Shown: piece by piece, positions 4,213-18,521 of the stretch
Layout: each line of letters begins with the position of its first letter
Position numbering within the stretch: position 1 is the stretch's first letter
Virus record (IMG/VR): IMGVR_UViG_3300005831_000046
Location: 1-33,404 of that record
DNA: 33,404 nt
Strand: one strand, 5' to 3'
Source: a virus
The notes under the pieces: generated by a model
The model's database searches: none
The model's input: only the letters and a program-made list of their open reading frames with translations
Told to the model about the DNA's origin: nothing
Program-made: the position numbers and the translations under genes

Positions 4213-6031
4213 TTTTCCTCCTTACTATTACTTGTCTCCATTCGTGACGGCAGGCAGGCTCGTTCACATCTGTATTGGGGTTGTGATACCATCCTCCGCG
4301 CCTTTTCCATACATCATAACCAAGGATAGTGCTTAGTTTGTCTATGTCCTCACGTGAGTATAGTTTGCCTAATTTCATTAAGCGTTGGCAGAACTCGCGC
4401 GACTGACCGCGTAAAGCTGGCGCATCCGCCCTTACATCGTAGCGGTAACGCACAACCAAGGTTTCAATATTTGTGTCCGTGATTTTGATTGCCTTATTTG
4501 TGTAGCTTACTTTCCCCTTTTGGTCTAACACTTTGAGGATTTCCTCTACTTCCTTTTCGGGTATCTTTGTCAGCTCTGAAATGTTTTTCACGTTGGGTTT
4601 TTCGTTGTCCTTAATCGCTGCTATTACCTTGGATTCCTTTTGAGTTAGTTCCTCAAATTCAAAGTGTGTTTCATCATCCCCAAATTGCGCGTAAATTGCA
4701 ATATGCTCGTCTAATGAAGATGTTTCCGCATTGAATGCAGTAGCAGTAGATTTGCCTTCGCCACCGACAACGGGCGGCAATCCTACCAAACTTCGAATTT
4801 CGTTTATGCTTAACTCGTTTAGTACTTTGTTTGCTACCAACGGAGACAAGCTACTGATTGCGTTAATAAGTGCGTCATTGCCTGACGGTGCTTGTTCTTC
4901 GGGAAGTCCCATTTTAACGCGTACTTCGTTTCTGTCAATTACACCCGCTGTGAATAGTTGTGTTACATCTTGCTCGATAGGCTCAAAACGTACCGTTTCA
5001 ACCTTACCCGCTTCGCCCATGGCTTGCAGGAACATAGTATAAACCGAATCCAATCTCTGTTGGTTAGGTCTCACGTATTGACGGTAGAAAATCTCATAAG
5101 CCGTTGCGAGTTCGTTTCTTCCGCCTAATTGACCTTCTTCCTTAATGCCTAACAGCATCGGAGAGGTAACTTGGTGCGCTGTGAATATGTTTTGTTCAAC
5201 CGCCTTAGAAAGTTCCAAGAACATCGTGTCCAATTGGTTTGACGTTAGCGGATTTAATTGTGCGGGGGTTTCGTTGATATCGTTGTAAATAAAGATAATC
5301 GAACCAGCGTTTGAGTCACCCGTGTATGCGTTTTGAAACTTGCGTTTAAACAGACGCGCTTCTTCGGGTGTTGGTTCGCCTTTGAACAACTGCAACATAT
5401 GCCCCGCGGTGAATCCGCTTGCGATGTTGTTTTGGTGGAAGTTGCTAATCCGCGCGTCAATGTCGATGTAGTTTAAAGCAGGATAGTACTCAGGCAAAGG
5501 ATAAACGCCTAACCCCGTGCGGTATTCACGATAGTAAAATATCTGCTTGCCCATTGGCTTCGCGGTGTTGAGGTTAAAAGGCTCGTATGATTCTATGTCT
5601 TCTGCCTTTGCCTTGCTCCAATCCTCTGCATAAAAGTATTCTGTGTGATTTAGAGTCCTTACCTTGGAAAAGTCCATGTGGAAAAATGACGGTTTCCCTA
5701 ATCTGTCATAAAGAACTTCCACCGCAAATCCACCCTGAACTTTTACATCGGTAGTTATTTTGAATCTGAACTCTTGGAAGGTGTCGTATTTGTTCCACTT
5801 TTCAACTCGTGCAGGACTTACACCAGTTACCCCTTCGCCAATGATATACAATACCTTTTGCTGAACGATTGCATTGTGTTTGGCTGACTTATTCAGAAGG
5901 TAGATGAGGTCATCTGGGAATTTGTTTTTTTCGCCATATTCAATAATGCCCTTGGACTTTAACTCCTTAAATTCGGGCATCTTGTTTTCAACGAAGGTCA
6001 AAAACTCCAAGGACTTACTGAGTGATTGCAT
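4205..6031 (-). CDS. portal protein with C-terminal winged-helix-like and Cys/His segments, 608 aa
   Basis: The first ~400 residues are portal-like: a long alpha/beta body, the segment NNIASGFTAGHMLQLFKGEP, then FIYNDINETPAQLNPLTSNQ and the helix LFLELSKAVEQNIFTAHQVT followed by PMLLGI, typical of portal stem and clip regions; position beside capsid and connector genes agrees. After residue ~440 two extra segments follow. Residues 466-510 (ESKVIAAIKDNEKPNV to VLDQKGKVSY) have a helix-turn-helix plus wing pattern. Residues 540-608 contain REFCQRLMKLGKLYSREDI, RRGGWYHN and ACRHEW, a Cys/His/Trp-rich tail I associate with Bacteroidota phage head proteins. The double-stranded DNA passes through the portal, so a DNA-binding appendage would make sense, but that is inference. 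Overlaps the upstream gene by 17 nt. Confidence 0.8.
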   Translation of the reverse strand: MQSLSKSLEFLTFVENKMPEFKELKSKGIIEYGEKNKFPDDLIYLLNKSAKHNAIVQQKVLYIIGEGVTGVSPARVEKWNKYDTFQEFRFKITTDVKVQGGFAVEVLYDRLGKPSFFHMDFSKVRTLNHTEYFYAEDWSKAKAEDIESYEPFNLNTAKPMGKQIFYYREYRTGLGVYPLPEYYPALNYIDIDARISNFHQNNIASGFTAGHMLQLFKGEPTPEEARLFKRKFQNAYTGDSNAGSIIFIYNDINETPAQLNPLTSNQLDTMFLELSKAVEQNIFTAHQVTSPMLLGIKEEGQLGGRNELATAYEIFYRQYVRPNQQRLDSVYTMFLQAMGEAGKVETVRFEPIEQDVTQLFTAGVIDRNEVRVKMGLPEEQAPSGNDALINAISSLSPLVANKVLNELSINEIRSLVGLPPVVGGEGKSTATAFNAETSSLDEHIAIYAQFGDDETHFEFEELTQKESKVIAAIKDNEKPNVKNISELTKIPEKEVEEILKVLDQKGKVSYTNKAIKITDTNIETLVVRYRYDVRADAPALRGQSREFCQRLMKLGKLYSREDIDKLSTILGYDVWKRRGGWYHNPNTDVNEPACRHEWRQVIVRRKNA

Positions 6032-6395
6032 TTACTTTATACTCTTTTGTTATGGTGTTTACAGCGAATGTGTTTTCCGTGTCTTTTACTACGGCAATTC
6101 CTTCCTCTACTACCTCATTTGCCAATGAAGGATTTGTATTACTTGAAGAAGTCTGCGCGTAGATTGTGTATTCATACTCACCGACTGGCAATGTCTTTTG
6201 CGTTGTCGCGCCTTCGGTGAACGTAAACTCGTTATATCTTTCGGTATGGGTTGAAGTGTCGGAAACTAAAAAAGTCCTAATCGCACCCGATACCATGTGT
6301 TTAAACGATATTAAAAAATAAGGGTTCGTAATTGTTACCTTTTCGGTAGCAGTTACGTACATCGTGTTAGATGCCCCCTTGTTAATCGTTATCAT
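6015..6395 (-). CDS. putative virion-associated beta protein, 126 aa
   Basis: I start it at the ATG at 6395 (MITINKGASNTMYVTATEK); the longer frame uses a TTG inside a promoter-like element. The product is a beta-rich, membrane-free protein with PYFLISFKHMVSGAIRTFLV and LPVGEYEYTIYAQTSS, resembling small Bacteroidota phage virion proteins found near the capsid and tube genes. It is the first gene after the tail tube terminator, is preceded by a candidate late promoter, and overlaps the portal gene by 17 nt. Precise role unknown. Confidence 0.6.
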   Translation of the reverse strand: MITINKGASNTMYVTATEKVTITNPYFLISFKHMVSGAIRTFLVSDTSTHTERYNEFTFTEGATTQKTLPVGEYEYTIYAQTSSSNTNPSLANEVVEEGIAVVKDTENTFAVNTITKEYKVNAITQ

Positions 6396-6400: not shown

Positions 6401-6430
6401 TAAATGTACGATTTCCCAAAATTGCGCTAA
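6401..6430 (-). promoter_or_regulatory. candidate late promoter (GTACATTTA, 11-nt spacer, GCGCAAT) before 6395
   Basis: On the coding strand the order is TATTAGCGCAAT, 11 nt, GTACATTTA, 5 nt, ATG. Plus-strand blocks are TAAATGTAC at 6401-6409 and ATTGCGCTAA at 6421-6430. The same two blocks with the same 11-nt spacing occur before the genes starting at 9151 and 15954. The element lies directly after a terminator, where a new promoter is needed. Because it ends 5 nt before the ATG, transcripts may be leaderless or nearly so. Confidence 0.6.
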
Positions 6431-6431
6431 T

Positions 6432-6461
6432 AAAAAAAGCCCATCACTTGGACGGGCTTTT
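6432..6461 (-). terminator. rho-independent terminator after tail tube gene
   Basis: AAAAGCCC (6435-6442) pairs perfectly with GGGCTTTT (6454-6461) around an 11-nt loop. Read on the minus strand the hairpin is followed by a run of seven T. It lies just downstream of the tube gene's stop at 6477. Confidence 0.9.
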
Positions 6462-6476
6462 CTTTAGTTGTTTAGC

Positions 6477-6992
6477 TTACGCTAATGCGAGAGACGCAAC
6501 AACGGAAGACTGAACTTTCAAAGGCAAATCGGTCTCCTTATGCAAGAAGTTCAAAACGCTTCCTTTGAAGTCGGTGAACGCCTGACCGAAGTTTACTTCT
6601 GATTGCTGGAGTTGCATACCGTAGTCTGCGCCATACAGCCAATAATTATCCTCGGTGTCACGCACAATACATCTCAAACGCGCCTGCGAAAGTAGCTTTA
6701 ATTCGTTACGTTTTGCGGTGCTTAGTTTGTGCAGTCTTACGGTTAAATCCGCCTCATAGTAGGTAGTGCCGTTTTCACTTGAAGGAATAGACCTCCAAGT
6801 TGAAGTTGCGGTTTCCTTTTCGAGTTCGTACTTAAAGTAAACCCTGCTTGATGCAAGTGTATGTGCGGAAACTTCCCCGCTTGATTTGGTTACGGTGTCG
6901 GAAGAGTTGAACTCTACCAAGTAAATTGCTTTTACTCCCCCTGCTTGGTCTTTGCAGTCAAGAGTGAATCCTTGTGTTAATAGGCAAGCCAT
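6477..6992 (-). CDS. major tail tube protein, 171 aa
   Basis: The N-terminus (MACLLTQGFTLDCKDQAGGV, then KAIYLVEFN) and the later VRDTEDNYWLYGADYGMQLQ followed by GQAFTDFKGSVLNFLHKE fit the tail tube proteins of Bacteroidota siphophages: a beta-barrel core with a GxAxxDxKG-type stretch near the end. It would polymerise around the tape measure. The gene is set between two strong terminators, consistent with a separate abundant transcript. Confidence 0.7.
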   Translation of the reverse strand: MACLLTQGFTLDCKDQAGGVKAIYLVEFNSSDTVTKSSGEVSAHTLASSRVYFKYELEKETATSTWRSIPSSENGTTYYEADLTVRLHKLSTAKRNELKLLSQARLRCIVRDTEDNYWLYGADYGMQLQQSEVNFGQAFTDFKGSVLNFLHKETDLPLKVQSSVVASLALA

Positions 6993-7008
6993 GATTTTAA
7001 TGTGTTAT

Positions 7009-7042
7009 AAAAAAGGCGGGCTTTGTGACCCGCCCTTTATTT
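7009..7042. terminator. bidirectional-looking terminator between capsid and tail tube genes
   Basis: GGCGGG (7015-7020) pairs with CCCGCC (7029-7034); A-rich and T-rich flanks extend the stem with one bulged C. T-tracts follow in both orientations (TTTATTTTT on plus, TTTTTTATAA on minus). On the minus strand it ends the capsid transcript. Confidence 0.85.
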
Positions 7043-7058
7043 TTGGTTTTACTTATGG

Positions 7059-8021
7059 TTAGATTACAAAATAAACTACTTGGTCAGGGAATGCAATTTG
7101 GCAACCGTATTTGAAGTTAGCTTTGAATTTAACGATGTCGTCATCTTCGCTATACCAAAACTTATACGCTTCTTCCTCGTTCATCATGTCTGTACCCAAG
7201 AAGAAGTTAGCCCAAAAAGATGCAACAATTTTGTTTGTGCCATCCATACCTGGCAAGCCATAAATCTTGATGCCTGAAATTGGGTCAAGGATTTCAAGGT
7301 TTGCAGCTTCAGTTGCGTTGTAGTGGTAGAGGTTAGCAGATACCAACCATGCGCGGTATGTTCTGAAAGTGTCCGCACCCATTGCAATAAACAAGTCAGG
7401 ACGACCCAACAATGCAGTCGGCAACAAAGAGTAAATCTTTGTAATTGCATCGTCAATGTTAGAAGAGGTCAAACTTGTAAGTTGTGTCCATCCACCGCCC
7501 GTAGTTGGGTTGCCTTGGATTGGGTCGCCTGCGCCACCGAAACCTAACGCGGTAAGGATAGTTAAATATCCGTCCCAAAATGCGTTGTTACCAGTACCGC
7601 CTGAGGTATTACCCTGCCAAATAGCGGTTTCGATTGCTTGTGCAATGCCCATTGCTTTTTCTTCGCCAATCTGTGCTTGGAATACGCCCATGTCTACGGG
7701 TGCGCCCGCTGAAAGTCCAATCTGTGTGAACTTAGCTTCCAAATCCTTAGGACAAAGGTTTTCAAACACTTTTACTTTACCAACGGTGATGTCACGGTCA
7801 GTAATTGCGGTTGTTCCGCTTGTGGTGTTTGAGCAACCATCCGCTTGGAAAAGGATAGTAGATGACAGAATAGGCAATGCCTGAGAAGATTTTACGCCAG
7901 CAACTACCTGACCTGCGCTTTGCAACAAAGATGCTGTCTTTGCTGAAAACATAGCTTTTACCAAAAGGTTGGTTTGTTCCTCTTTGGTATAGTTAGTGAG
8001 TGATGATACGTCTAGTGCCAT
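7059..8021 (-). CDS. major capsid protein, 320 aa
   Basis: Length and layout fit the capsid proteins of Bacteroidota siphophages with the HK97 fold. Visible features are an early helix (SLTNYTKEEQTNLLVKAMFS), a middle part with DLFIAMGADTFRTYRAWLVS, a GIKIYGLPGMDGTNKIV stretch, and the C-terminal FFLGTDMMNEEEAYKFWYSE followed by FKYGCQIAFPDQVVYF, the late-domain signature I associate with these proteins. It follows the scaffold gene by 2 nt and has a strong terminator behind it. No long N-terminal delta domain is seen, which fits with a separate scaffold. Confidence 0.8.
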   Translation of the reverse strand: MALDVSSLTNYTKEEQTNLLVKAMFSAKTASLLQSAGQVVAGVKSSQALPILSSTILFQADGCSNTTSGTTAITDRDITVGKVKVFENLCPKDLEAKFTQIGLSAGAPVDMGVFQAQIGEEKAMGIAQAIETAIWQGNTSGGTGNNAFWDGYLTILTALGFGGAGDPIQGNPTTGGGWTQLTSLTSSNIDDAITKIYSLLPTALLGRPDLFIAMGADTFRTYRAWLVSANLYHYNATEAANLEILDPISGIKIYGLPGMDGTNKIVASFWANFFLGTDMMNEEEAYKFWYSEDDDIVKFKANFKYGCQIAFPDQVVYFVI

Positions 8022-8023
8022 TA

Positions 8024-8554
8024 TTATTTGATTGAATTAAGTGATTTTGCAAATGCTGCCAAGCTGTTGTCTTTTTCAATCTTGGTAGCGGAAATTTCTT
8101 TTTTCTTTGGTTCGGGAGTTTGCTCGGCAAATGCTGCGAAAGCATCCATCTGCTTGTTAGCAATTTCCAACATCTTTGAAATGTTAGCTTGGATTTCTGC
8201 AATGCTTTTGGTGTTCGCTTCCAATGCTGCCTCGTATTTAGAAATACGGGTTTCAATGGCGGTGAATTGCTCTGCAAAGTCGCTTTGTGGTTCAGGTGCT
8301 TCTGCTGCTTTGATTTCAGCTACCAAACCTTCGCTTACAACGATAACCGTTCCGTCTTCCAAGGTGTGTTCACCATCGGGGGCAGGAGTGCCGTCTTCTA
8401 AGGTTACTGCTACACCTTGCACAAGTTCGTCACCTTCGTATTGGATAACAACACCGTCTGTGGTTGTAGCACTACCAAACTTCATGGGATTCAGTTTTTC
8501 CTTAATTGCGGAAAACTCAGCCCTAATTTGTTCGAGTGTTTCTTTAAAATTCAT
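8024..8554 (-). CDS. putative capsid scaffold protein, 176 aa
   Basis: Helical, acidic N- and C-terminal parts flank a beta-like centre (VIQYEGDELVQGVAVTLEDG then TPAPDGEHTLEDGTVIVVSE). Residues ~95-145 are a heptad-rich coiled coil (FTAIETRISKYEAALEANTK). The tail is K/E-rich. Lying between the protease and the major capsid gene, this is the expected place and character of a scaffold or of the prohead core. The HTLEDGT motif recurs in scaffold-region proteins of Bacteroidota phages as I recall. A candidate late promoter precedes it. Confidence 0.65.
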   Translation of the reverse strand: MNFKETLEQIRAEFSAIKEKLNPMKFGSATTTDGVVIQYEGDELVQGVAVTLEDGTPAPDGEHTLEDGTVIVVSEGLVAEIKAAEAPEPQSDFAEQFTAIETRISKYEAALEANTKSIAEIQANISKMLEIANKQMDAFAAFAEQTPEPKKKEISATKIEKDNSLAAFAKSLNSIK

Positions 8555-8559
8555 ATACT

Positions 8560-8587
8560 TAAATGTACGTTAGTTAAGTGATGTGCG
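8560..8587 (-). promoter_or_regulatory. candidate late promoter before scaffold gene
   Basis: TAAATGTAC (8560-8568) stands 5 nt before the start codon, as at the other late sites. The second block is degenerate here: ATGTGCG at 8581-8587 with a 12-nt spacer, instead of ATTGCGC with 11. Confidence 0.45.
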
Positions 8588-9151
8588 AAAATTGCGGAGA
8601 TAGGCGAGGAAATCCCGCGCTGCGCTTAGTTCTTCGGTCTCTTTCTCTACCCCGAAAAACCCTTCAATTGAAAAGCCATTGAACACGCCTTCTTTAACCT
8701 TGCCCCATACTTCGTCGTTATCTACCAAGTAAGACACAAACCAAGACCCGTCCTTCGCGTCTTCAAATCCCGTTGGTGGGTTGATACCGCGTTCACGATT
8801 TACGAAGTAAGATTCAATCATTGATACACCTTCATTTACGGGTGCATCGTGGTTTGTGTTTATGGCGTTGTATTTCTGTTGCCTGCTGAATTTCTTTGCA
8901 AGTTCCCAAATTGTCTGAGCATTGAATACGATGTAATATTCGCCCCGTTCATCGTCCTTGCGGTAAATTGGCAAGTCGGCAAGCATTGCAGCCCCCGTGA
9001 TGATTCGTTTTTCCTCTGACTGAATAGAGTAACGCTGTTTTTCGTTGAACGCTAAAAAGTCCTTCTGAATTGCGGGTTTATCAACTAAGGAAATAAAGGT
9101 AATACCCCCGTCTTCCTCGCCCGCTGTTGCCATGTATACTGGTAAATCCAT
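8570..9151 (-). CDS. XkdF-like prohead serine protease, 193 aa
   Basis: The start (MDLPVYMATAGEEDGGITFI, then SLVDKPAIQKDF) and the middle (GAAMLADLPIYR, EYYIVFNAQTIWELAKKF, YNAINTNHDAPV, SWFVSYLVDNDEVWGKVKEG, FNGFSIEGFF) match the putative phage serine proteases of the XkdF type. In this family the conserved NxxHD-like histidine and the GFSIEG serine are thought to be catalytic; both are visible here. It would cleave scaffold and capsid during prohead maturation. The scaffold gene lies downstream and a candidate late promoter upstream. Confidence 0.85.
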   Translation of the reverse strand: MDLPVYMATAGEEDGGITFISLVDKPAIQKDFLAFNEKQRYSIQSEEKRIITGAAMLADLPIYRKDDERGEYYIVFNAQTIWELAKKFSRQQKYNAINTNHDAPVNEGVSMIESYFVNRERGINPPTGFEDAKDGSWFVSYLVDNDEVWGKVKEGVFNGFSIEGFFGVEKETEELSAARDFLAYLRNFRTSLN

Positions 9152-9156
9152 GTACT

Positions 9157-9188
9157 TAAATGTACACAGAAAAGGAATTGCGCTAATA
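9157..9188 (-). promoter_or_regulatory. candidate late promoter before XkdF-like protease gene
   Basis: TAAATGTAC (9157-9165), 11-nt spacer, ATTGCGC (9177-9183), then TAATA. The block ATTGCGCTAATA is identical to the one at 6421-6432. On the coding strand the element ends 5 nt before the ATG at 9151. It overlaps the last codons of the tape measure gene. Confidence 0.6.
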
Positions 9189-11234
9189 TACCGACAACTG
9201 CCTATTAGTGTTCACCCTTTTTTGCGCGTTTGAGATGTCCGATTCAAGAACATACACCCTATTCATGGGGCTTTGTCCGTTGGGTGCATTTAGTCTTAAG
9301 GATTGGTTGTTTACGCTGAATGTCTGAGGTATTGCTGCGGATGCAGAAGACGGCACATTTGGTGCATTGTCACCTTCTTTGCCTAAGATTCGTTTTGCTG
9401 CTGCTATGTTTGCAAGTACCGTAGACACACCGATTGCAATTGCTCCAATGTTCGCAGGGAATGGGACGGATTGCGCCTGCGCCACCGCACCTGAGATACC
9501 TTTTGCCGTGTCAATTGCTATTTGAGCAAGTGCAAACGCTTTGCCTTTTTTGGTCTGCGCACCATAGAGTTGTGAAAGTGTACCAAGTGCTGATGAAGTA
9601 GCAGACATTACATCATCCTGATTTTTCTTAAGTGCATCGGATTTGGCTTTATCGTCAGCAACCATCTTTTCATCTGCTGCCTTTTTGTTTGCCACTTGGT
9701 CATCTAACGCAGCCTTTTGGATATCGGTTTGGTCTTTGCCGTAATCCGCTGCCTCGGTCAAAAGTCTTGCGTACTTGTCTTGCTCAATTGCTTGCAGATT
9801 GTCTGCTAATGTCTTTGCGTCAATCTCACCAGTCAAATAACGCTGCTTCTCTATGTTGGCTTTGTCTTCGTAGTATTTATTAATAGCCTCAACGCCCTTT
9901 TTGTATTCATCCTCCGTGCGTGTTAATTGGTCTGCCTTGCGCTTTTCATCAATTGCTTTTTGCTCGGCATTGAATTTGTCTGTTATGTCTTTGGTGCGAA
10001 GGTTGTGTTCGCGTAAAATCTGCTCCTGAGTTAGATGCTTTTTTTCTTCGCTTTTCAACTCCAATGCCCACAACATCTCAAATGCTGCCAACCTTTCTTG
10101 AAGTGTTACGGCTGTCTTTTCTGCATATTCTGCGTCCGCCTTTGCTCTGTCATCGTTGGTTTTTTTCTGATTATCTCTTGCCTCTTTTGCACTTGTTTCT
10201 TGAATACTTTTTATTTGCAACTGATAACCAGCGTTTGCGTTTCTGAGTTCTGCTAATTTATCCTTTGCTGCTTTAATGATCGCGTCCCCTTCCTTTGCAA
10301 CTTCCTCAGGGTCAAATACTAAATTTGCAATTCCCTCATTGAATCCTTTTTGTAACTCCCAATTCTTACCCAATGCCTCACCCACCATATCTACGGTCTT
10401 GAGCAAAAGTTGAATTGGGATAGTCAACGATTTGACAACCCCTTGAAGGATTTCGTTGTTTCTTTTGGCTGCTGCAACTTGTGCGTTTTTGGTTATCTCC
10501 GCATTTTCTACTGCGATTTCAGCTTGTTTAATGGCTTGGTCGCTTTGAAGTTTTTTCATCTTCAAGATGTCCAACTCTGATTTACCTTGCAGTTTTAAAA
10601 CATTCTCTTGCCCGTCTATGGCGGTAAGTTTTTCTTCTTGCGCCTTTAAATTTTCCTCAGTTGCTTTGTTTAGTTTTTTCTGTTCCGAAGATACTCCTCC
10701 AACCGCTTCTTTTATGTCATCCCAATATGCGACAATAGTGCCAAGTAAGACAATAAAAGCCCCAATGCCAGTAGCCAATAATCCCGTGCGAATCTTCTTG
10801 AACGCATCCAATGCCCCTTGCCCCATAGAAACAAAGGTTTCCTTTACTTGCATTATGCCGTCAATCCCTTGCGCAAATGCCATAGCACCTTGAACTTTTG
10901 CCAAGGTCTTTTGTACATCCTCAGACTCAGCACCAAACAAAGCCAATGCCCCTTGTGCTGCTTGTATTCCGTTTGCTACTCCGCTAATAACCTTACCAAC
11001 TGCTGCAAATTTGTCAGGATTTAAACCCGCAACACGGTTGTTCAGGTCTTCCATTTCGTCGGTGAGTTGGGCAACTCTTTTTGCTGCCTCTTGCGCTTGA
11101 GGACTAAACTCCCCAAAATCACGAGCAAATTGTACCGCTTCCTGCTTTGCTTGCTTTATTTCTTCGCGTATTGATTTGACGCTATTGCCACCGCTTGCCG
11201 TGGCTTTTACGTTTACTATGGTTTCAATTGTCAT
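9183..11234 (-). CDS. tail tape measure protein, 683 aa
   Basis: Long helical protein: an N-terminal coiled coil (IREEIKQAKQEAVQFARDFG), a hydrophobic stretch near residues 148-170 (LLATGIGAFIVLLGTIVAYW), a very long charged coiled coil from ~185 to ~530, and a C-terminal small-residue region (KAFALAQIAIDTAKGISGAV and GAIAIGVSTVLANIAAAKRI) typical of tape measure proteins. At roughly 0.15 nm per residue it would set a tail of about 100 nm, so the virion is probably a siphovirus. It overlaps the upstream tail gene by 4 nt. Unusually, it lies after the tail tip genes and directly before the head genes. Confidence 0.85.
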   Translation of the reverse strand: MTIETIVNVKATASGGNSVKSIREEIKQAKQEAVQFARDFGEFSPQAQEAAKRVAQLTDEMEDLNNRVAGLNPDKFAAVGKVISGVANGIQAAQGALALFGAESEDVQKTLAKVQGAMAFAQGIDGIMQVKETFVSMGQGALDAFKKIRTGLLATGIGAFIVLLGTIVAYWDDIKEAVGGVSSEQKKLNKATEENLKAQEEKLTAIDGQENVLKLQGKSELDILKMKKLQSDQAIKQAEIAVENAEITKNAQVAAAKRNNEILQGVVKSLTIPIQLLLKTVDMVGEALGKNWELQKGFNEGIANLVFDPEEVAKEGDAIIKAAKDKLAELRNANAGYQLQIKSIQETSAKEARDNQKKTNDDRAKADAEYAEKTAVTLQERLAAFEMLWALELKSEEKKHLTQEQILREHNLRTKDITDKFNAEQKAIDEKRKADQLTRTEDEYKKGVEAINKYYEDKANIEKQRYLTGEIDAKTLADNLQAIEQDKYARLLTEAADYGKDQTDIQKAALDDQVANKKAADEKMVADDKAKSDALKKNQDDVMSATSSALGTLSQLYGAQTKKGKAFALAQIAIDTAKGISGAVAQAQSVPFPANIGAIAIGVSTVLANIAAAKRILGKEGDNAPNVPSSASAAIPQTFSVNNQSLRLNAPNGQSPMNRVYVLESDISNAQKRVNTNRQLSVY

Positions 11235-14200
11235 GCTATTCTGATTGCTCTTATGCTTGTTCCTTTGTCTGAGTTATTACTCACGTTATTTGCAGTGTTT
11301 ACACCGTTGCCGTCCGATGCTATCCAGTTGCCCGTCTGTGTAGTTGTTCCCCTTGCACCTCTCAATTTGTAAGTGGTTGTTCCCGTTGGGGATACTATCG
11401 CGGAAAGTGAAACATTGCCCCACGTTCTAACCGTTGCAGTACCTGCCACTAAATGCTGAGAACCTTCCGCAATTACCACGTTTGAACCGTCTGTTATGGC
11501 TGCCATCATTACCGCAACCGTAGTAGTTTGTGACGCACCATTTACCGTTGCTAAAATCAACCAAGTGCCCGCTGCTAATGAAATACTCGCGCCAGTTATG
11601 TCGGCATAAGTCACAGCGGATAACGTAGTTTCAGCGGTTGCAAACGCTTCTGCTGTTGTTAATGCTACTGCCTTAGTAGTAGTTCCCGTTATACCGAATC
11701 CGTTGGTTAAAGTAGCTTGTTTGCCGTCTAATTGTGTTTGTATGGCTGAAGTAACACCGTCTAAGTATTGAAATTCTGTGTTTGATACGTTACCGTTGGC
11801 AATCTTTGCAGCATCAATAGCACTCGGCAAGTCGGATGCTTGAATAGTTGAATCTACCCATGCCGTGCCGTTATGCCTGAGATACTCACCACTTGCTGCA
11901 AGTGTAATTGTAACATCGTTTAAGTCGTTAATATTTGCCGCTGCTATTCGTGCGTCAACGCTTGTATTAAAGTTCGTTATATCGGATGCCGTATGCGTAT
12001 GCGCTGTGGGTGCGTCACCAATGTACATAAAGTTCCCATCCGTACAAGCCGTGTCAAATTGTGACTTGGTTCCCGTTATACCTACGATGCTGGTTTGGTC
12101 TCCGCTGTTTGTCCCCGTAAGTCCCAAATCAGTCTTTACTTGGCTTACGCTTCTGTTAACCCATGCCCCCGCCTTGCGTTGTATGAAATCGTCATTGGTA
12201 GGGATTAAATTGGCAATAGCAGTAAGGTCGCTATCCAATGGTTGCTTGCCGTCAAGTTGCGGTTGTATCGGTGCAGTTACCCCATCGGTGTAATTCAGCT
12301 CTGTAATGGTTGAAGTAAGCCCCGACAATGTTTCCGCAGAATCTACTATCCCATCGTTGTCCGTGTCGTACTCCGCTTTTGTCATATCCCCGCTTCCTGC
12401 GCTGGCATCCGCTACCCACTTTGTCCCGTCATACTTAATTGAATCACCCGCGCTTGGTGCTGTAAGGTCTACTTCTTTATTGAACCAATACATCTTATCC
12501 GATGCGGTGATTTCTAAGTTCTGAGACATTAAAACCACGTTTCCGCTTCCACTTATCACAACCCCCGAAGAACCGCCTACAAAATTCCCCCTTCCTGCTT
12601 GGGAAACGTGTCCGCCTTTGTAGCCAACTATCATGTCTTTATCTCCTACAAATTGCGCTTCGCCAATTTTTACTACCTTTTGCCCCAAGAAATCCCCGAA
12701 CCCGCCTTCACCTACGCTGCCAGTTGTTGGGGTGAATGATGCGTGTCCTTGGATTTGTACGAACTCACATTGCGTTAGTCTGTCGGGTACGTAGTCAATT
12801 ACTTTATTCAGTCTAAAATAGCTATTCTCAAAAAAGAAAGTATCTCGGAAGGATAGCTTTTCAAAGTCTGCGGGGGTTATGTGAAAATACCCAGTTACTA
12901 CTTTACTATTAGGGTCGGTAATTTCGTTAATGTACCTGCTCCAATATGCGTTGTAAAGATTGTTATTAGTGTACGCTGTGTTAGGCGGATAGCCCGCTTC
13001 GAATGGTGTACCGTAAAGAATGTCCACAGAAGGCGCAACCGCTGTGTCTGTGTGGATAGTAAGCGGGTAAATGTCCTCTGTTATTGAAGGCGATGTAGTG
13101 CCTCTATCCGTAAATATATCATAAGTGGTGCAGGTTTGGTTTGAGTCGTGGTATAAAATGTGAATCCCGTTGAACTTATCAATTAGAGGATAGGTTTTAT
13201 CTTCTGCAGTGTGTACCTGCGTAGGCTTAAACACGGTTTCAATTTTCTTTTCCTCTTTGACAAAATCATTCTCAACATCTACGAACACATCCCCATAAGT
13301 ACGATTATAAATTGCGGTGTATTCCTTGTTAAAAAAGTCCTCAGATTTGGCATGGCTGAAATAGTATCTTTTTGCGTTCAGTTCCCCCATCGGGATAATG
13401 CTTAACTTCTGCGACTTGTCCAATTTCTCTGACCAATCGTTTAGGCTGCCCGTGTAGTATTCCTCATAGGGCATCACAATTAGCTTGTACGGGTTATCGG
13501 GGTCTTTGTCTACATGAAGGTTGAACATAGAAACAAAGGACTTCATAACATCCGACTGAGTAATAGTGCCAGTAAAGAATTGGTCAAACTGCATTGTTTG
13601 GGTAGGTGTCGCACCCTTCCTTTTTACGTTGTACATCTGAAATCCTGATGCCAATGTTAAGCCCGTTGGGAATATAGAACTGCCCGTCCTTGGAATAATA
13701 TCCAACACTTCAACGGTGTATACTGACCCGTACCCTAAATACTTATTGTCAAATAGCGCATAAATGCCATCGTTTACACTTCCGCCAGCGTCCGCTGTTA
13801 CTACTGATGTGTTTATGTGTATTGCAGTTCCGTTTTGTTTCAGTACCCATGTCACATCATAAACTTCATTTGCAGTAACGCCAGTCATTTTGACATTACC
13901 CTCAATGACCAAATCACAATAACCCGCTGACTTTGTGCCTAATGTAATAGCGTTTGCCCCTAAGTTGTAAATATTGTTCGGGTCTGTTTCGGTGTTGAAG
14001 TTTAAAACTGAACCAATACTTACCGCAACATCGACATTCGTAGAGGCATTAAATAAATAAGCTACCGAAGGCGGTGTGCCCACATCCGAAGTAAGCAATA
14101 GCCCCTTAAACGTATCTGAATTGAAAAAGCTATCCGTAGTGTACGTAAATCCCGCGTTGCTCAGTATCTTATCTACCACGGTTTTAGCGTAAAGCATAGG

Positions 14201-14782
14201 CTTGTAATAGTCTAATGTAACGCTATTATAGGAATTTAGAGTGCCATCATTCACAAGCCCGTAAATATACCCGATACCCGCACCGCCTGCCGTGGGTGTG
14301 CCGTTTACTACTATCGTGTTGCTCCAAGAATTAACGACATTGGTAGTGTTGAACTCATGATTGTATTCTGAGAAATCCAAGTCGGACATTTTCAGCCCGC
14401 GAATCTCTGTGAATAGTTCCGCTGCCATCCCGTGGATGCTACACTCAAACTCTATTTCGCCATCGTCTGTTACGTTTATCTGAATCAAACGCATGAACCC
14501 TACCACTTGCGGAATAGAATCAACTAAGACGGTAACAGATGCCCGTAAATTAGGGTTGAAGTCAGGGGCAAATTGTGTACTTGCCGTGATGTCGTAGTTG
14601 ATGTGATAAAGATGCCCGAAAAACTCTTTATTTGTTTTTGTTCCTGCCAGAGTGAATGTCTTTGTCCAATCCGATTGTTTGTTTTCAGGCTCGCGAACAT
14701 CTGCAACCGACCTATTAATAGGAATGTTGAAGTCCGCAGGGACATCTAAGAAAGTATTGTTTGATACTATTTGGTAAATCAT
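11231..14782 (-). CDS. tail tip / baseplate protein fused to fibre shaft and head domain, 1183 aa
   Basis: Residues 1-~650 resemble tail-tip hub proteins of Bacteroidota phages: MIYQIVSNNTFLDVPADFNI, RSVADVREPENKQSDWTKTF, TIQL-type FTLAGTKTNKEFFGHLYHIN and a later GYFHITPADFEKLSFRDTFF. Residues ~700-1050 are a glycine- and repeat-rich fibre shaft (AEYDTDNDGIVDSAETLSGL, ITELNYTDGV, IQPQLDGKQ, IDAAKIANGNVSNTEFQYLD). The last ~150 residues form a beta-rich domain (LAAGTWLILATVNGAS, TYKLRGARGTTTQTG) that may be a trimeric receptor-binding or C1q-like head. The shaft shares a module with the fibre at 1299-3083. Overlaps neighbours by 4 nt on both sides. Confidence 0.75.
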   Translation of the reverse strand: MIYQIVSNNTFLDVPADFNIPINRSVADVREPENKQSDWTKTFTLAGTKTNKEFFGHLYHINYDITASTQFAPDFNPNLRASVTVLVDSIPQVVGFMRLIQINVTDDGEIEFECSIHGMAAELFTEIRGLKMSDLDFSEYNHEFNTTNVVNSWSNTIVVNGTPTAGGAGIGYIYGLVNDGTLNSYNSVTLDYYKPMLYAKTVVDKILSNAGFTYTTDSFFNSDTFKGLLLTSDVGTPPSVAYLFNASTNVDVAVSIGSVLNFNTETDPNNIYNLGANAITLGTKSAGYCDLVIEGNVKMTGVTANEVYDVTWVLKQNGTAIHINTSVVTADAGGSVNDGIYALFDNKYLGYGSVYTVEVLDIIPRTGSSIFPTGLTLASGFQMYNVKRKGATPTQTMQFDQFFTGTITQSDVMKSFVSMFNLHVDKDPDNPYKLIVMPYEEYYTGSLNDWSEKLDKSQKLSIIPMGELNAKRYYFSHAKSEDFFNKEYTAIYNRTYGDVFVDVENDFVKEEKKIETVFKPTQVHTAEDKTYPLIDKFNGIHILYHDSNQTCTTYDIFTDRGTTSPSITEDIYPLTIHTDTAVAPSVDILYGTPFEAGYPPNTAYTNNNLYNAYWSRYINEITDPNSKVVTGYFHITPADFEKLSFRDTFFFENSYFRLNKVIDYVPDRLTQCEFVQIQGHASFTPTTGSVGEGGFGDFLGQKVVKIGEAQFVGDKDMIVGYKGGHVSQAGRGNFVGGSSGVVISGSGNVVLMSQNLEITASDKMYWFNKEVDLTAPSAGDSIKYDGTKWVADASAGSGDMTKAEYDTDNDGIVDSAETLSGLTSTITELNYTDGVTAPIQPQLDGKQPLDSDLTAIANLIPTNDDFIQRKAGAWVNRSVSQVKTDLGLTGTNSGDQTSIVGITGTKSQFDTACTDGNFMYIGDAPTAHTHTASDITNFNTSVDARIAAANINDLNDVTITLAASGEYLRHNGTAWVDSTIQASDLPSAIDAAKIANGNVSNTEFQYLDGVTSAIQTQLDGKQATLTNGFGITGTTTKAVALTTAEAFATAETTLSAVTYADITGASISLAAGTWLILATVNGASQTTTVAVMMAAITDGSNVVIAEGSQHLVAGTATVRTWGNVSLSAIVSPTGTTTYKLRGARGTTTQTGNWIASDGNGVNTANNVSNNSDKGTSIRAIRIA

Positions 14783-15954
14783 GCCATTCTTTCAGGTTCG
14801 CTGTATTCGATTTCTACCACTTGATTAAACACTCCGTCTATTGAGTTATACTTTTGCTCGTAATCGGGAAGATTAACGACAATCGGATAATAGTCCACCC
14901 CGTCAAGCAAATAAACCTCAGGTGACGCAAACAAGCCCTTTATGAACTCACTATCTGCTGTGGTTATGTTGTCGCTGTGTAGCGTTGCCCGCTGTGTCCT
15001 TTGCGCGTAATAAACCGATGTGCTGTGTTTATGTTCGTTGCGGGAAAATCTATTCCCGTTTAGTTCGTGGGTGTCGCGCTTCATTATACGCTTTTCAATG
15101 TTCCACTTATCCCGTTTGAACATATTAAAATACCACGAATCAAACCCGCCCTTTTCATTTAACCAACACAAAGTATAGCCTTCAAACTCTGAGCAGTTGT
15201 CGTAGTAATCATAACGGAAAGTAGAGGAAAAAGGCGTAAATACCGAAACGCCATCCCATGTACCCACGGCAATAGTAAAGTAAGCTGCGGATGAAGATAC
15301 AAAAGGAACTCCGCCCGTAATTATTGAGCCAGTACTTGTGAACGAATTTTGGTTATATCCGATGGGAATTTTAAACTGCGTCTTTGCTGTTGCGGTGTAT
15401 TGAATCCTTGCCGTCTGAATAACGCTTCCCGCTGCGTTGTAAGATTTGATTTCTACAATGTTTTGAGAAAGGTTTGTTGCCCCCGTCGCGTTGTTCCAAT
15501 AGAACCAAGACAACTCGTTTCTGTGTATGTTTCTCCTTACCGTGTGCAGTCCCTCAAAAGACACATCTCCCGTGTTTGCGCTGTTTGTTGTGTATTGGGT
15601 AGTGGTGACCTCGTTTAGATATTCAGTAACGGGTGTGCCGTACTCTTTCCCGAACTCTACTTCATACTCGCAAATAGGCAAAGTGCTTGTACCGATGCTT
15701 GTGCTGGATATGTCGAAGAAGTTTGCAATCTGTGATTCAAGAATTCTATTTACAGAAATGACACCTTTGTTGGTGCTGTTTGGGTAAATTGGAAACTTGA
15801 ACTTTGCGAGTTGATTGCCTGACCCGTCCTTTACTACCGCTATAAATTTGAAATTCGCGTCTGAATAGATACCGCCTGAGGATTCGCTTACCGTGAAATA
15901 GTCAGGCACAAGTACTGCTTGAAATTCAGGGTTTGCCACTATGGATAATGCCAT
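14779..15954 (-). CDS. putative distal tail / baseplate protein, 391 aa
   Basis: Beta-rich protein (MALSIVANPEFQAVLVPDYF, KFKFPIYPNSTNKGVISVNR, then CSEFEGYTLCWLNEKGGFDS and NRFSRNEHKHSTSVYYAQRT). The CWLNxxGGxDSW-like stretch and the C-terminal region of the type SPEVYLLDGVDYYPIVVNLP are characteristic of tail-tip proteins found beside the hub protein in Bacteroidota phages. It overlaps the 1183-residue gene by 4 nt and has a candidate late promoter directly before its ATG. It probably joins the tail tube to the tip. Confidence 0.6.
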   Translation of the reverse strand: MALSIVANPEFQAVLVPDYFTVSESSGGIYSDANFKFIAVVKDGSGNQLAKFKFPIYPNSTNKGVISVNRILESQIANFFDISSTSIGTSTLPICEYEVEFGKEYGTPVTEYLNEVTTTQYTTNSANTGDVSFEGLHTVRRNIHRNELSWFYWNNATGATNLSQNIVEIKSYNAAGSVIQTARIQYTATAKTQFKIPIGYNQNSFTSTGSIITGGVPFVSSSAAYFTIAVGTWDGVSVFTPFSSTFRYDYYDNCSEFEGYTLCWLNEKGGFDSWYFNMFKRDKWNIEKRIMKRDTHELNGNRFSRNEHKHSTSVYYAQRTQRATLHSDNITTADSEFIKGLFASPEVYLLDGVDYYPIVVNLPDYEQKYNSIDGVFNQVVEIEYSEPERMA

Positions 15955-15959
15955 GTACT

Positions 15960-15986
15960 TAAATGTACATAATTAGGCTATTGCGC
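15960..15986 (-). promoter_or_regulatory. candidate late promoter before the 391-aa tail gene
   Basis: TAAATGTAC (15960-15968), 11-nt spacer, ATTGCGC (15980-15986), with the coding-strand element GTACATTTAAGTAC ending at the ATG at 15954. Same geometry as at 6401 and 9157. It overlaps the final codons of the upstream gene. Confidence 0.6.
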
Positions 15987-16559
15987 GTCAATGGTTGCGT
16001 ATATTGCTAACCTCTCCCCATACATACGTGCCAGTGCGTCAGATATGATTTGCAAGTTCTCAGGCGTTAACACTTCGCGTATGAATCCCGAACCTTTATA
16101 CCCAAATCTCTTAACCGTGCCTTTTGCACCGATTGACCGCGCTATTGCAAATGCCATTCCGCGTCTTCTTTCCATGACTGACAACTTACTTTCGCCTTTT
16201 GACTTTCTCACGGGTATACCTTTAGCGGTTATCCATTCCTCAATACTTTTAATCGGTGGGCGTTTCCCGCGCTTGCGTCCGTACTCAAAGTATTTCCAAT
16301 GCTCCGAACCCATGACATTCGCCTGAATCAAATTCCCCGTTTGCGTCACCCTGCTCGCTTCTAATGATTGCAAAAGGTCGCGGGATGCTGTGCCTTTCTT
16401 TTCAAGTAATGACCTACGCAAGTCTTCCGTAATCATCTGAGCAGCGGTTTGAATTATCTGCTGCTCTGCGGTTAAGTTTGAAGGGTCGTATTTAGACGGG
16501 TCTTCCCCTAACGTGTCAAGTATGCCCGATGCGATGGCTTCAAGTTGCGCCTTGTTCAT
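15978..16559 (-). CDS. putative HK97-gp10-like tail completion protein, 193 aa
   Basis: Contains a basic central region (GSEHWKYFEYGRKRGKRPPI, then KSIEEWITAKGIPV) and a C-terminal half with FAIARSIGAKGTVKRFG, then SGFIREVLTPE. The pattern of YxxxGRxxGKxPP, EWI..KGI, AxxIARSIxxKGT and GFI is typical of HK97 gp10-type or neck proteins that join head and tail. It overlaps the frameshift extension of the tail chaperone by 4 nt (ATGA). The neighbouring genes are tail assembly genes, which fits. Confidence 0.7.
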   Translation of the reverse strand: MNKAQLEAIASGILDTLGEDPSKYDPSNLTAEQQIIQTAAQMITEDLRRSLLEKKGTASRDLLQSLEASRVTQTGNLIQANVMGSEHWKYFEYGRKRGKRPPIKSIEEWITAKGIPVRKSKGESKLSVMERRRGMAFAIARSIGAKGTVKRFGYKGSGFIREVLTPENLQIISDALARMYGERLAIYATIDAQ

Positions 16560-17343
16560 GTCATTAAATGTACAATTTCCTGAAGTATGGCAATTATGTA
16601 CCTCTCGTTGGATTTGTCAGCCCGTGCCATCCTTGCTGCCTCGGTCAACTTATCCGACAAGTCTTTTTTTCTTTTAATTAAAAGCGTTGCTGCGTTGAAA
16701 TATTCCACAAGGTTCATATTCCATATTGCCTCTACTCTCAAGGGGTCACGTTGGGCGAGTTGGTCCGTGATGTCAAGCCATATACTCCAGTCAGCTTTTC
16801 CACTTCCTCCCGTAAATAAGGAAGGATAGCCTTTAATGATTTGGTCAAGTACAGAGAAAAAAAAAGCAAATTACCCATTGCGATTTCAATAGAAAGGTGA
16901 TTCAGAAACAAGTCAGCCCGTGCCTCATAAGTCGCCACCAAGTCCTTAACCTTTTTCGGTTTGCCCATCCAATTTAACTCCACGGAAAGATAAGCAAGTA
17001 TCTTGTGGATGTTCTTGTATCCTTCTTCTTGGAATAGCTTTTGAACCGCTGCAAATTGGTGTGCGTTTAGTTCGTGTTTGTTCACGGTGAACTTATACCG
17101 TTTGCCTTTGAGTTTGAAAGGTCTGTTTTGCTCCTTACTTGGTGGAATGTCCATCCAATCCAATTTGGCGGTCAAGGCCTCCCTTTCCGCGTTTGGCATA
17201 GATTCGAAGTAGTCAAATTCTTTGCCCGTTAAAATAGACAATGCCCACATATCCTTGTCAACCTTTTCAAGTTCTTGGTTGATTTCTGCGAGTTGCAGGA
17301 ATTGTTTTATAGTGACTTGATGCCACCCTAATAAGCTGCCCAT
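16556..17343 (-). CDS. tail assembly chaperone, -1 frameshift product (gpGT-like), 262 aa
   Basis: The 201-residue gene 16738-17343 contains nine consecutive T on its coding strand (16865-16857), read as CTT TTT TTT TCT, i.e. a U-UUU-UUU slippery heptamer at codons 160-162. A -1 slip continues in a frame that stays open from 16858 to the stop at 16556. The new 100-residue extension begins FSVLDQIIKGYPSLFTGG, passes ADWSIWLDITDQLAQRDPLR and VEAIWNMNLVEYFNAATLLI, and ends VHLMT. Its amino-acid composition is clearly protein-like with no internal stop. Paired short and frameshifted chaperones are the rule in lambda-like and many other long-tailed phages (gpG and gpGT). The alternative is a homopolymer length error that splits one 262-residue gene. 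Confidence 0.7.
16561..16591 (-). promoter_or_regulatory. weaker candidate late promoter before 16559
   Basis: TAAATGTAC at 16565-16573 lies 5 nt before the ATG at 16559, as at the other late sites. It is inside the last codons of the chaperone extension, and the upstream block is poor (TATGGC at 16586-16591 rather than ATTGCGC), so this copy may be partly chance. Confidence 0.35.
16738..17343 (-). CDS. tail assembly chaperone, short form (gpG-like), 201 aa
   Basis: Zero-frame product. Mostly helical with FLQLAEINQELEKVDKDMWA near the N-terminus, a basic KLKGKRYKFTVNKHELNAHQ centre and a VELNWMGKPKKV stretch; after the slippery site it reads SLYLTKSLKAILPYLREEVE and ends in VTP. It resembles chaperone-region proteins of Bacteroidota phages by layout. 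It starts by overlapping the TerL stop by 16 nt. In related phages the short form is made in excess and guides assembly of the tube around the tape measure; here the tape measure gene lies 5 kb downstream. Confidence 0.65.
   Translation of the reverse strand: MGSLLGWHQVTIKQFLQLAEINQELEKVDKDMWALSILTGKEFDYFESMPNAEREALTAKLDWMDIPPSKEQNRPFKLKGKRYKFTVNKHELNAHQFAAVQKLFQEEGYKNIHKILAYLSVELNWMGKPKKVKDLVATYEARADLFLNHLSIEIAMGNLLFFSLYLTKSLKAILPYLREEVEKLTGVYGLTSRTNSPNVTP
16857..16866 (-). promoter_or_regulatory. U-UUU-UUU ribosomal slippery site
   Basis: Coding-strand C followed by nine T, read in the zero frame as CTT TTT TTT (16866-16858). XXXYYYZ with X=Y=Z=U allows both P- and A-site tRNAs to re-pair after a -1 slip. 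I did not find a strong hairpin immediately downstream by eye. Confidence 0.65.
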
Positions 17344-18521
17344 ATTCCGTTTCTGTTATTTATTTTACAATCCCATGCCAACGCTAAAGAGTTTACGCAG
17401 TCATCATGACTACCGTCAGGGGCTGAGAATTTCACCCGCCCTTGGTTGTAGATAAACTCAAAGCCCTCTAATTCGTCCTGCATTACGCCCGCTAAGATAG
17501 ATATTTCCCCGCTATTTATTGCAGTTGCCAGTCCTTCCATTAGTTGCTGCTTAGTTCGTACCCCCGCAGCGTAGTTAACCCCGATAACTCGCGGGCATTT
17601 ACGTGCTATGTCCTCTACAATGGGGTCACCCACACCCGTTGAATCTATGTGCGCCGCTGTCTTACCCACTACTGACATGATTCGTGTCTTGGTTTGCGCC
17701 CAATCTAATTGAAATCTGTCAAAGTAACTTACGCGCCCCGCCTTATCTAATCCCGTTATTACCGTCCAATCCGAATATTTGGCAAGGTCAACCCCATACG
17801 CCACCGTTGGTTCTTTGCTTATCTCCCGAATATTAGCCCGAATAGCCTGCAACCCAAAAGGATTAGACCCATCCTCGGACGGTTCTGCCAAATACAGCTC
17901 GTTAAATATCCATTCGGGAAGGTCGCGTTTAGCTTGTTCGATTTCCTCATAGGATAAAATGCCTTCCGCTGCTGCGTCATAGGCTGTGATTTTGTGATAC
18001 TCATAGCCCGATTCCCCATTCTTTGCCTTTACGCCTAACTTATAGCCCCAATTCTTTTTACCCTTTGCGTTGCCGATTAGCTTACATTTGCCCCCCGTTG
18101 CGGTTAGGGTTGAACGTAGCGCATACCACGCCTCTTCCCTTGCCCTTGTGAACTCGTCAAACACCGCAGCGTATACATCATCTCCGTAAAGGTTGTCGGG
18201 TTTCTCAGCGGACTTAAAATGTATCTCGGCTCCCGTTGGAAGGGTAAGTACTAACTTGGATTCGTTAGCCTTGAAAAAGTCCCGCACCGTTACTTGGTTG
18301 CGCATACGCTTAAATGCGATTTCCGCCTGACCGTAAACGGGAGCCACCCACCAAACCGACTGCCCTTTCTTTAATTTTAAGGATTCCTCAAATAGCCAAA
18401 TGATATGACTTGCCGTCTTACCGCATTTTGTGGCAGCCTCGCAAACCGTAAATCTTGCAGGGCTGTCTAACAATTTAACTTGGTAGCTGGTTAGGCTCGG
18501 TCTTTTGTAGTGGATTTGCAT
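17328..18521 (-). CDS. terL: terminase large subunit, 397 aa
   Basis: ATPase part: Walker A-like CEAATKCGKTAS (residues 27-38), coupling-type QSVWWVAPVYGQAE, and Walker B VYAAVFDEF (116-124). Nuclease part (RNase H fold): Asp in YGVDLAKYSD (D245), HIDSTGVGDP (D293) and DGSHDDCVNSLALA (D373/374), the usual metal ligands. It packages DNA into the prohead through the portal. Overlaps the upstream glycosyltransferase by 31 nt and the downstream chaperone by 16 nt. Length is short but within range for such terminases. Confidence 0.92.
   Translation of the reverse strand: MQIHYKRPSLTSYQVKLLDSPARFTVCEAATKCGKTASHIIWLFEESLKLKKGQSVWWVAPVYGQAEIAFKRMRNQVTVRDFFKANESKLVLTLPTGAEIHFKSAEKPDNLYGDDVYAAVFDEFTRAREEAWYALRSTLTATGGKCKLIGNAKGKKNWGYKLGVKAKNGESGYEYHKITAYDAAAEGILSYEEIEQAKRDLPEWIFNELYLAEPSEDGSNPFGLQAIRANIREISKEPTVAYGVDLAKYSDWTVITGLDKAGRVSYFDRFQLDWAQTKTRIMSVVGKTAAHIDSTGVGDPIVEDIARKCPRVIGVNYAAGVRTKQQLMEGLATAINSGEISILAGVMQDELEGFEFIYNQGRVKFSAPDGSHDDCVNSLALAWDCKINNRNGIWAAY

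Follow-up and report, generated by a model that had tools for sequence, protein, structure and literature searches.

The late promoters of phage T4 consist of a short element, TATAAATA, that occupies the -10 position only and is read by gp55, a phage protein of the sigma family that needs the sliding clamp and a co-activator. Phages phiEco32 and 7-11 encode a sigma factor for middle and late promoters with the consensus TAATGTATA, as well as an anti-sigma protein (PMC4331800), and the Privateer homolog of this sigma factor has been called ECF (PMC7881722). The primary promoter of Bacteroidota, recognized by sigma-ABfr, takes the form TTTG / TANNTTTG with a -7 consensus of TAHHTTTG (PMC6847099). 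The ECF-type promoters of Flavobacterium psychrophilum carry the motif SM6 with a CGT box (PMC9723704).

The window analysed here is a 33,404 nt stretch of viral DNA (IMG/VR record IMGVR_UViG_3300005831_000046, positions 1 to 33,404). It comes from a virus that appears to belong to an uncultured group infecting Bacteroidota, in which promoter and sigma factor change together between lineages. Five repeated elements in the window probably act as promoters for virion genes, forming a second class of transcription specific to the phage and read by an ECF-like sigma factor of its own. Repeated late promoters served by a phage sigma factor would be of a kind already known from phiEco32, here with new features, a comparison that draws on sequence alone. 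The likeness to phiEco32 and 7-11 lies in a phage sigma factor distinct from that of the host, a short motif before structural genes and an early part that relies on host promoters (PMC4331800). The differences are that the host belongs to another phylum, that the promoters are set at the start codon, and that the boxes are lineage-specific and vary with the sigma domains. T4 likewise combines a short late promoter with a reader of the sigma family, but the lineage of the window (lineage A) has in addition a -35 element. F. psychrophilum shares the use of ECF sigma factors beside the primary sigma in Bacteroidota, but its ECF promoters serve a cellular regulon and carry another box (PMC9723704). 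No description of these phage promoters or of the ECF-like sigma factor was found in the open-licence PMC literature.

The element TAAATGTAC occurs in exactly five copies in the window, all on the plus strand, at positions 6401, 8560, 9157, 15960 and 16565. Read on the coding strand, these are -10-like boxes, GTACATTTA, located on the minus strand at 6401–6409, 8560–8568, 9157–9165, 15960–15968 and 16565–16573. A pattern search of the window for GTACATTTA-N5-ATG returned five matches on the minus strand, none on the plus strand and none in the reversed control. All of them precede the genes starting at 6395, 8554, 9151, 15954 and 16559, as the earlier note had claimed from the letters alone, and none lies elsewhere in the window. 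The pairing with ATTGCGC that it described at three of these genes is exact: in the plus-strand reading the heptamer stands 11 nt after the box at 6401, 9157 and 15960. On the coding strand this places a -35-like GCGCAAT 11 nt upstream of three of the five boxes (6421–6427, 9177–9183 and 15980–15986, minus strand), and site 8560 has a version with three mismatches. At least four ATTGCGC-paired matches arose in none of 100 shuffles. When 46 random 19-nt segments of the coding strand were drawn, four of them shared an 8-mer in just 2 of 2000 draws and five did so in none of 2000.

The genes behind the boxes are all on the minus strand. The gene at 8570–9151 matches the S78-type family Peptidase_S78_2 and encodes a head maturation protease. 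The gene at 6015–6395 (126 residues, no family match) lies between a 171-residue gene and the portal gene. The gene at 8024–8554 (176 residues) directly precedes a capsid-like gene of 320 residues at 7059–8021. The gene at 14779–15954 (391 residues, no family match) lies within the structural block; judged by the position of its promoter, that at 15978–16559 (193 residues) opens the late block. The description as a virion gene is secure only for the head protease; the other four are read as such from their location among the terminase, tape-measure-like, capsid-like and portal genes, and their expression would presumably be late. One scan found 103 relatives of the capsid-like gene, which had no match among the phages in the INPHARED copy. 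The portal matched Nonlabens phages P12024S/L at 25%, and the terminase gave distant matches only.

The earlier note had proposed to look for the motif before the structural genes of related phages. Four lineages of shared ancestry were compared, and a promoter-like box is kept there; it stands on the coding strand at a near-fixed distance from the start, and for the most part it avoids coding sequence. The refuting condition set in the earlier note, a similar frequency inside the genes of relatives, thus came out in favour of the promoter idea. The box is lineage-specific; before equivalent genes of the uncultured relatives it reads GTACATTT in lineages A and B, GTACTATT in lineage C and CTACTTTT-like in lineage D, part of which has CTACTTAT. 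Near gene starts, each lineage's box is almost exclusive to that lineage. In a table of 16 records compiled by direct search, the lineage box precedes the equivalent of the 9151 gene in 16 of 16 records, that of the 15954 gene in 14 of the 14 records that include its start, that of the 6395 gene in 14 of 15 and that of the 16559 gene in 13 of 14, with record G008 the one lacking it. The 8554 gene has the box in 9 of 16 records; lineage C has none there and lineage B has ATAATATTTA. When 8-mers in the 19 nt preceding gene starts were ranked de novo, a lineage box came first or shared first place in 8 of 9 records; in G008 other words came out on top. Counted over distinct sites outside ORFs of at least 90 residues, the distance from the late box to the first open ATG or GTG is 12–17 nt in 10 of 12 cases in lineage A, 12 of 14 in B, 8 of 8 in C and 28 of 39 in D. 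Short inverted repeats are seen at some of the late boxes, namely TGTAC-N6-GTACA at 9151 and CCTAC...GTAGG in lineage D. A palindromic operator around the box was considered as a candidate and dropped, the symmetry not being general.

The two-part, sigma-type architecture proposed in the earlier note was upheld for the -10-like box, which is kept in relatives, but its GCGCAAT half is consistent in lineage A only. The -35 position there has GC in 9 of 10 nonredundant sites (counted by eye), with the consensus TTnGC/GCGCAAT, and the other lineages lack a consistent -35 element.

A separate, host-type class of presumed early promoters is also present, in agreement with the distinction drawn in the earlier note. 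It has the form TTTG-N19-TATATTTG-N4-ATG, which matches the Bacteroidota primary promoter (PMC6847099) and leaves 4 nt to the start; the -7 box TATATTTG is unchanged in lineages B, C and D. In the late boxes the TAHHTTTG of that promoter is replaced by GTACATTT, GTACTATT or CTACTTTT. A plain sigma-70 promoter scan was uninformative (17 sites against 17.9 in shuffles).

The boxes might nevertheless be ordinary host promoters of the TTTG/TAHHTTTG type, used by the primary sigma factor of the host with no phage factor, the GTAC being chance or fine tuning. In each of records G001 and G002, two of the five sites read TACATTTG, a full fit to the published consensus (PMC6847099), and the spacing of 17–18 nt to an upstream T-rich element is near that of the host. 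As TAHHTTTG is largely or fully matched by TACATTTA and TACATTTG, the host sigma factor might read lineage-A boxes unaided. However, all five boxes of the window are TACATTTA and fall short of TAHHTTTG, and those of lineages C and D are further off. The final G is mostly lost while GTAC or CTAC is fixed, and the boxes of lineage C (GTACTATT) and part of lineage D (CTACTTAT) break the TTT core, whereas the -7 box of the host-type class is TATATTTG in each of lineages B, C and D. A repeated motif unlike the host consensus stands before structural genes, as in late promoters of the phiEco32 type, and use of the boxes by the host sigma factor alone appears improbable.

The late class is most likely read by the product of the gene at 21930–22466 (minus strand), a 178-residue protein with predicted sigma2 (residues ~1–80) and sigma4 (~98–166) domains. 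In the predicted structure a helical sigma2 domain is followed by a helical sigma4 domain, and the longer parts of primary sigma factors are missing. The model has a mean pLDDT of 79.7 and a pTM of only 0.43, so that it is uncertain how the domains are oriented towards each other. All of the top 19 Foldseek matches belong to sigma factors or to complexes that initiate transcription; most are ECF sigma factors whose alignments span the whole chain. The best, 6dv9_F, has an E value of 2.9e-3, and none reached 0.001. Region 4 of sigmaE aligned over 68 residues at 1.9 Å (VIA: Z 9.5), and both sigmaE domains over 143 residues with a Z score of 9.4. No family match exceeded its curated cut-off (best sigma matches E 0.016–0.03); among the curated sigma-70 region 2 and 4 models, Sigma70_r4_2 reached 14.4 bits in one of nine members, below its cut-off of 25.7. 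The protein is therefore named ECF-like, rather than an ECF family member by sequence. The sigma-like protein invoked in the earlier note thus exists, with a predicted fold that best matches ECF sigma factors.

An ortholog was found in 16 of 19 records. The window protein as query retrieved one near-identical contig only, and the nine-member alignment offered no conserved stretch to scan with, so single proteins of each lineage served as queries instead. The lineage-B protein had no detectable sequence match among phages in the INPHARED copy. PDB sequence matches of the alignment were confined to TAL-effector repeats of 24–30 residues, which were taken as chance. In the window, the sigma gene is preceded by a host-type -7 element (TATATTTG-N5-ATG; 22472–22479, minus strand), 5 nt before its ATG. 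In lineages B–D it lies inside an operon, and the upstream regions of first genes often end in TTTG-type sequences.

The two sigma domains vary in step with the two promoter halves. Among lineages B, C and D the terminases are 82–88% alike, but the sigma factors 31–39%. Fast divergence of the sigma factor was not counted as evidence by itself, because a number of other core genes likewise diverge to ~30%. The domains follow opposite orders: sigma2 is closest between A and B (44.6%, vs 30.9% for B–D), and sigma4 is 15.8% alike between A and B and 39.7% between B and D, a pattern seen in none of 5000 column shuffles. Sigma2 is most alike between lineages with a common -10 box, and sigma4 is unlike the rest only in lineage A, the sole lineage with a consistent -35 element. 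The pattern agrees with a -10 box common to A and B and a -35 element kept only in A, the match of the latter to sigma4 being one lineage deep. We tentatively suggest, as a reading with somewhat less than an even chance, that the late promoter code is modular and that early and late programmes are both leaderless. In a modular code, sigma2 and sigma4 would change separately from one another, whether through fast divergence or through exchange of domains, and the promoter half read by either would have to follow at about five sites simultaneously.

Under the preferred reading, a host-type promoter would drive the phage sigma gene, and the product would join the host RNA polymerase. Its sigma2 would then read GTACATTT and, in the lineage of the window, its sigma4 would read TTnGC/GCGCAAT. 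Transcripts would start at or a few bases from the start codon, so that translation of the leading gene in every late unit would proceed from an mRNA with no leader or almost none. Exact start sites are predicted here from box positions. The promoter idea of the earlier note is, on these comparisons, largely supported.

The MotA and AsiA proteins of T4 re-aim the host sigma factor, and the elements could be sites for such a factor or for a phage activator, the sigma-like protein doing something else. Inverted repeats in some late boxes could bind a dimer, and the sigma protein as box binder is a prediction. The symmetry is nevertheless missing at many sites, and the predicted fold together with the domain-by-domain match to the boxes favours a sigma factor; we regard an activator as unlikely, slightly more so than host promoters. 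A translation signal in the mRNA, with no promoter, would explain the tight distance to the start (14 nt from the G in lineage-A boxes near starts) but is very improbable given terminator-like hairpins that end 3–24 nt before some boxes, an upstream half in fixed register in lineage A, a distance that ranges from 14 to 17 nt in lineage D, and a box that varies in step with the sigma factor.

With the element-to-start rule of 4–5 nt given for Bacteroidota promoters in PMC6847099, the box-to-start distances predict that both promoter classes would give leaders of ~0–5 nt. The nearly leaderless late mRNAs of the earlier note are consistent with this, but early promoters would have the trait too and it is not special to the late class. 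By comparison, 87% of predicted transcripts in F. johnsoniae have leaders of >10 nt (PMC6847099), unlike these phage promoters, and leaderless transcripts are just 5.5% of mapped mRNAs in F. psychrophilum (PMC9723704). On the tentative reading above, both programmes would depend on leaderless mRNAs although the host phylum makes little use of such transcripts. If the main proposal is correct, it raises the question of how ribosomes that rarely meet leaderless mRNAs translate the main virion genes. The viruses would provide a naturally occurring set of small sigma factors, each matched to promoters of its own, so that protein half and promoter half could be tested against each other by swapping; orthogonal sigma/promoter pairs for Bacteroidota, where genetic parts are scarce; and a sequence rule for telling early from late genes across a large group of uncultured viruses. 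Were the code modular, lineages with packaging proteins >80% alike could not use each other's late promoters, which would amount to a transcriptional barrier between close relatives.

The terminator that the earlier note placed directly before one copy has a counterpart, at the 6395 copy, in a terminator-like hairpin stem at 6439–6453 (minus strand), followed by TTTTTTT and directly upstream of the promoter at 6401–6427, but the scan of the window yielded terminator-like sites in numbers close to those of its shuffles, so it argues only weakly for termination there. In the 60 nt before each site, terminator-like hairpins were seen for 9 of 46 nonredundant late sites and for 0 of 23 early sites; among random segments the count was 6 of 1000. 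Those upstream of late boxes recur in lineages B, C and D.

The elements preceding virion-gene starts in the window are real and conserved, and are best explained as late promoters placed at start codons and read by a phage sigma factor. The minus strand carries nearly all genes of the 33,404 bases. A primase/helicase and replication genes are present, as are the terminase (17328-18521), a tape-measure-like gene, the head protease (8570-9151), the portal (4205-6031) and a 320-aa gene (7059-8021), which has no named family and is termed capsid-like because of its position beside the protease. The earlier note had described a repeated element ahead of five virion starts, two-part at three of them, and both halves were recovered. 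GTACATTTA-N5-ATG occurs five times, each time before a gene of the structural block; neither the opposite strand nor the reversed control gave a match. GCGCAAT lies exactly 11 nt upstream of this box at three of the five sites. Five random same-strand segments shared one 8-mer in 0 of 2000 draws.

A scan with the capsid-like gene yielded 103 relatives, and 80 of them were retained; 18 of these and one record from a sigma scan were dissected gene by gene. Lineages were defined by which box precedes the corresponding genes: A (window, G001, G002) carries GTACATTT; B (G003, G004, G005, G017) GTACATTT, mostly as GGTACATTT; C (G006, G007, G018) GTACTATT; and D (G008-G016) CTACTTTT, CTACTTAT or CTACCTTT. 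The note had proposed looking for the motif before structural genes of related phages, and a lineage-specific box does stand there. In 16 of the 20 records including the window (all except G011, G012, G014 and the short G019), with genes named by their window start, the lineage box stands ahead of g9151 in 16/16, g15954 in 14/14, g6395 in 14/15, g16559 in 13/14 and g8554 in 9/16. At g8554, lineage B has ATAATATTTA instead, and the region ahead of the start holds no box in lineage C. In B, C and D a sixth gene, oriented against the structural genes, bears the box as well; its G003 product is a calcineurin-like phosphoesterase (such a gene with a late box is at locus L108, 9189-10190 (+)). Each box is nearly exclusive to its lineage. 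Counting boxes within 22 nt before an in-frame ATG or GTG, with near-identical records counted separately, GTACATTT was near starts in 14/21 cases in A, 13/21 in B, 0/3 in C and 0/5 in D; GTACTATT in 6/7 in C and 0/5 in the other lineages; and CTAC[TC]T[TA]T in 34/74 in D, 1/27 in A, 1/16 in B and 0/6 in C. With repeats removed and in-ORF sites set aside, the distance to the first open start is 12-17 nt for 58 of 73 late boxes (A 10/12, B 12/14, C 8/8, D 28/39).

Hairpins bear on whether the box acts in DNA or as an RNA signal. A terminator-like hairpin lies within 60 nt upstream of 9/46 nonredundant late boxes (A 0/12, B 6/12, C 2/5, D 1/17), 0/23 early boxes and 6/1000 random segments; the window's own hairpin has too few G-C pairs for the stricter hairpin test. 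A hairpin ending 3-11 nt before the box would halt read-through RNA, so that transcription must start afresh there, which favours a promoter over an RNA signal.

The late element is also distinct from the early class, as previously claimed. This second class, TATATTTG, stands exactly 12 nt before the start-codon A in 30 of 38 nonredundant sites, preselected at a distance of 11-18 nt from a start; outside ORFs and with no preselection, the fractions at 12-13 nt were 1/5 in A, 6/9 in B, 6/7 in C and 16/23 in D. The consensus of this class, TTTG-N19-TATATTTG, matches the primary promoter of Bacteroidota, TTTG/TANNTTTG (PMC6847099). The class lies ahead of small ORFs, of a gene with a DnaA domain and, in the window, of the sigma gene. 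The early box, searched as a fixed word that leaves variants uncounted, is unchanged across B, C and D, whereas the late box differs; this constancy does not rest on A, which has one early site near a start.

Transcripts in Flavobacterium johnsoniae start 4-5 nt past the end of the -7 element (PMC6847099). By this rule we infer leaders of 0-1 nt for the window's late mRNAs, and the range over the lineages would be about 0-5 nt. Near-leaderlessness, as proposed earlier, would not set the late class apart, since early leaders would likewise be about 0-1 nt. Leaders exceed 10 nt in 87% of predicted F. johnsoniae transcripts (PMC6847099), leaderless mRNAs make up 5.5% of those mapped in F. psychrophilum (PMC9723704), and of 37 Bacteroidetes/Chlorobi genomes surveyed in silico, 1 had leaderless genes. 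Leaderless mRNAs are therefore rare among the studied bacteria of the phylum.

The proposed reader of the late box is the 178-aa product of 21930-22466 (-), whose sequence matches sigma factors only weakly and which has an ortholog in 16/19 records. In the PDB, the 19 best matches to its AlphaFold2 model, built from nine orthologs (mean pLDDT 79.7, pTM 0.43), are chains of initiation complexes or sigma factors, mostly ECF (best E 2.9e-3). The VIA comparison with sigmaE region 4 gave a Z score of 9.5 and 1.9 Å over 68 residues. Against both sigmaE domains the Z score was 9.4 over 143 residues, and the differing placement of the domains raised the RMSD to 10.1 Å.

Between B, C and D the terminases agree at 82-88% and the sigmas at 31-39%. 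By domain, sigma2 is most alike in A and B (44.6%; B-D 30.9%, A-D 31.0%), and in sigma4 lineage A stands apart (A-B 15.8%) while B, C and D are mutually alike (36-48%); none of 5000 column shuffles reached this contrast. For the helix at residues 51-66, which we take to be the ECF -10-reading helix from helix order and general ECF anatomy, agreement is 41% for A-B, 38% for A-C and 13% for A-D. The -10 box is common to A and B, yet the terminase tree sets A apart from the rest. A consistent -35 element occurs only in A, with GC at one position in 9/10 nonredundant sites counted by eye. Sigma2 is thus closest where the -10 is shared, and sigma4 and the -35 are both distinct in A, so that each promoter half appears to track its expected reader domain. 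Across four lineages of shared ancestry, this is strong circumstantial evidence, not proof. Late promoters of the same kind, read by a phage sigma factor, are already known in phiEco32 (PMC4331800); what is new is the phylum, the placement of both classes at the start codon and the variation by domain.

Scanning named genomes with the terminase gave six loci, including ones in Mucilaginibacter and Fibrisoma, which makes Bacteroidota the most likely hosts. A distant sigma is present in three of the six. Late-gene starts in these relatives show other candidate repeated elements, few in number: CGCCAACA ahead of ATACTTAA in the Mucilaginibacter loci, and a GCGGACAAAACA/TATATATAG pair twice in locus L215. 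Paired elements before late genes of distant relatives lie at L214:11208-11242, L214:12230-12265, L216:11232-11266, L215:13380-13430 and L215:17468-17520.

In lineages C and D, TTATCCACA occurs as a perfect DnaA box with AAAG or GAAG in front, one copy of this form per record (L113:8388, L114:17115, L117:7233, L118:9463, L120:1799, L124:7502, L127:10863, L129:763 and L130:9492). It sits upstream of an HNH-like gene and the sigma operon in 9/9 records holding that region. A lone DnaA domain IV protein bearing the signature GGRDHST is also encoded by the phages, and the box may therefore mark an origin or set the timing of the sigma operon. TTATACACA/TTATCCACA-type boxes inside the sigma gene of lineage A (window 22231 (-), G001, G002, G019) may be chance, because the stretch codes for conserved residues.

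Bacteroidota rarely use the Shine-Dalgarno sequence AGGAG, and its presence here is odd. It lies ahead of 39 of 703 called genes, and its reverse complement ahead of 2. The strongly Shine-Dalgarno-like GTAAGGAG at 4212-4230 (-) in the window, before the gene starting at 4212, was found in 18/18 records read and is also coding sequence, at the portal gene's end.
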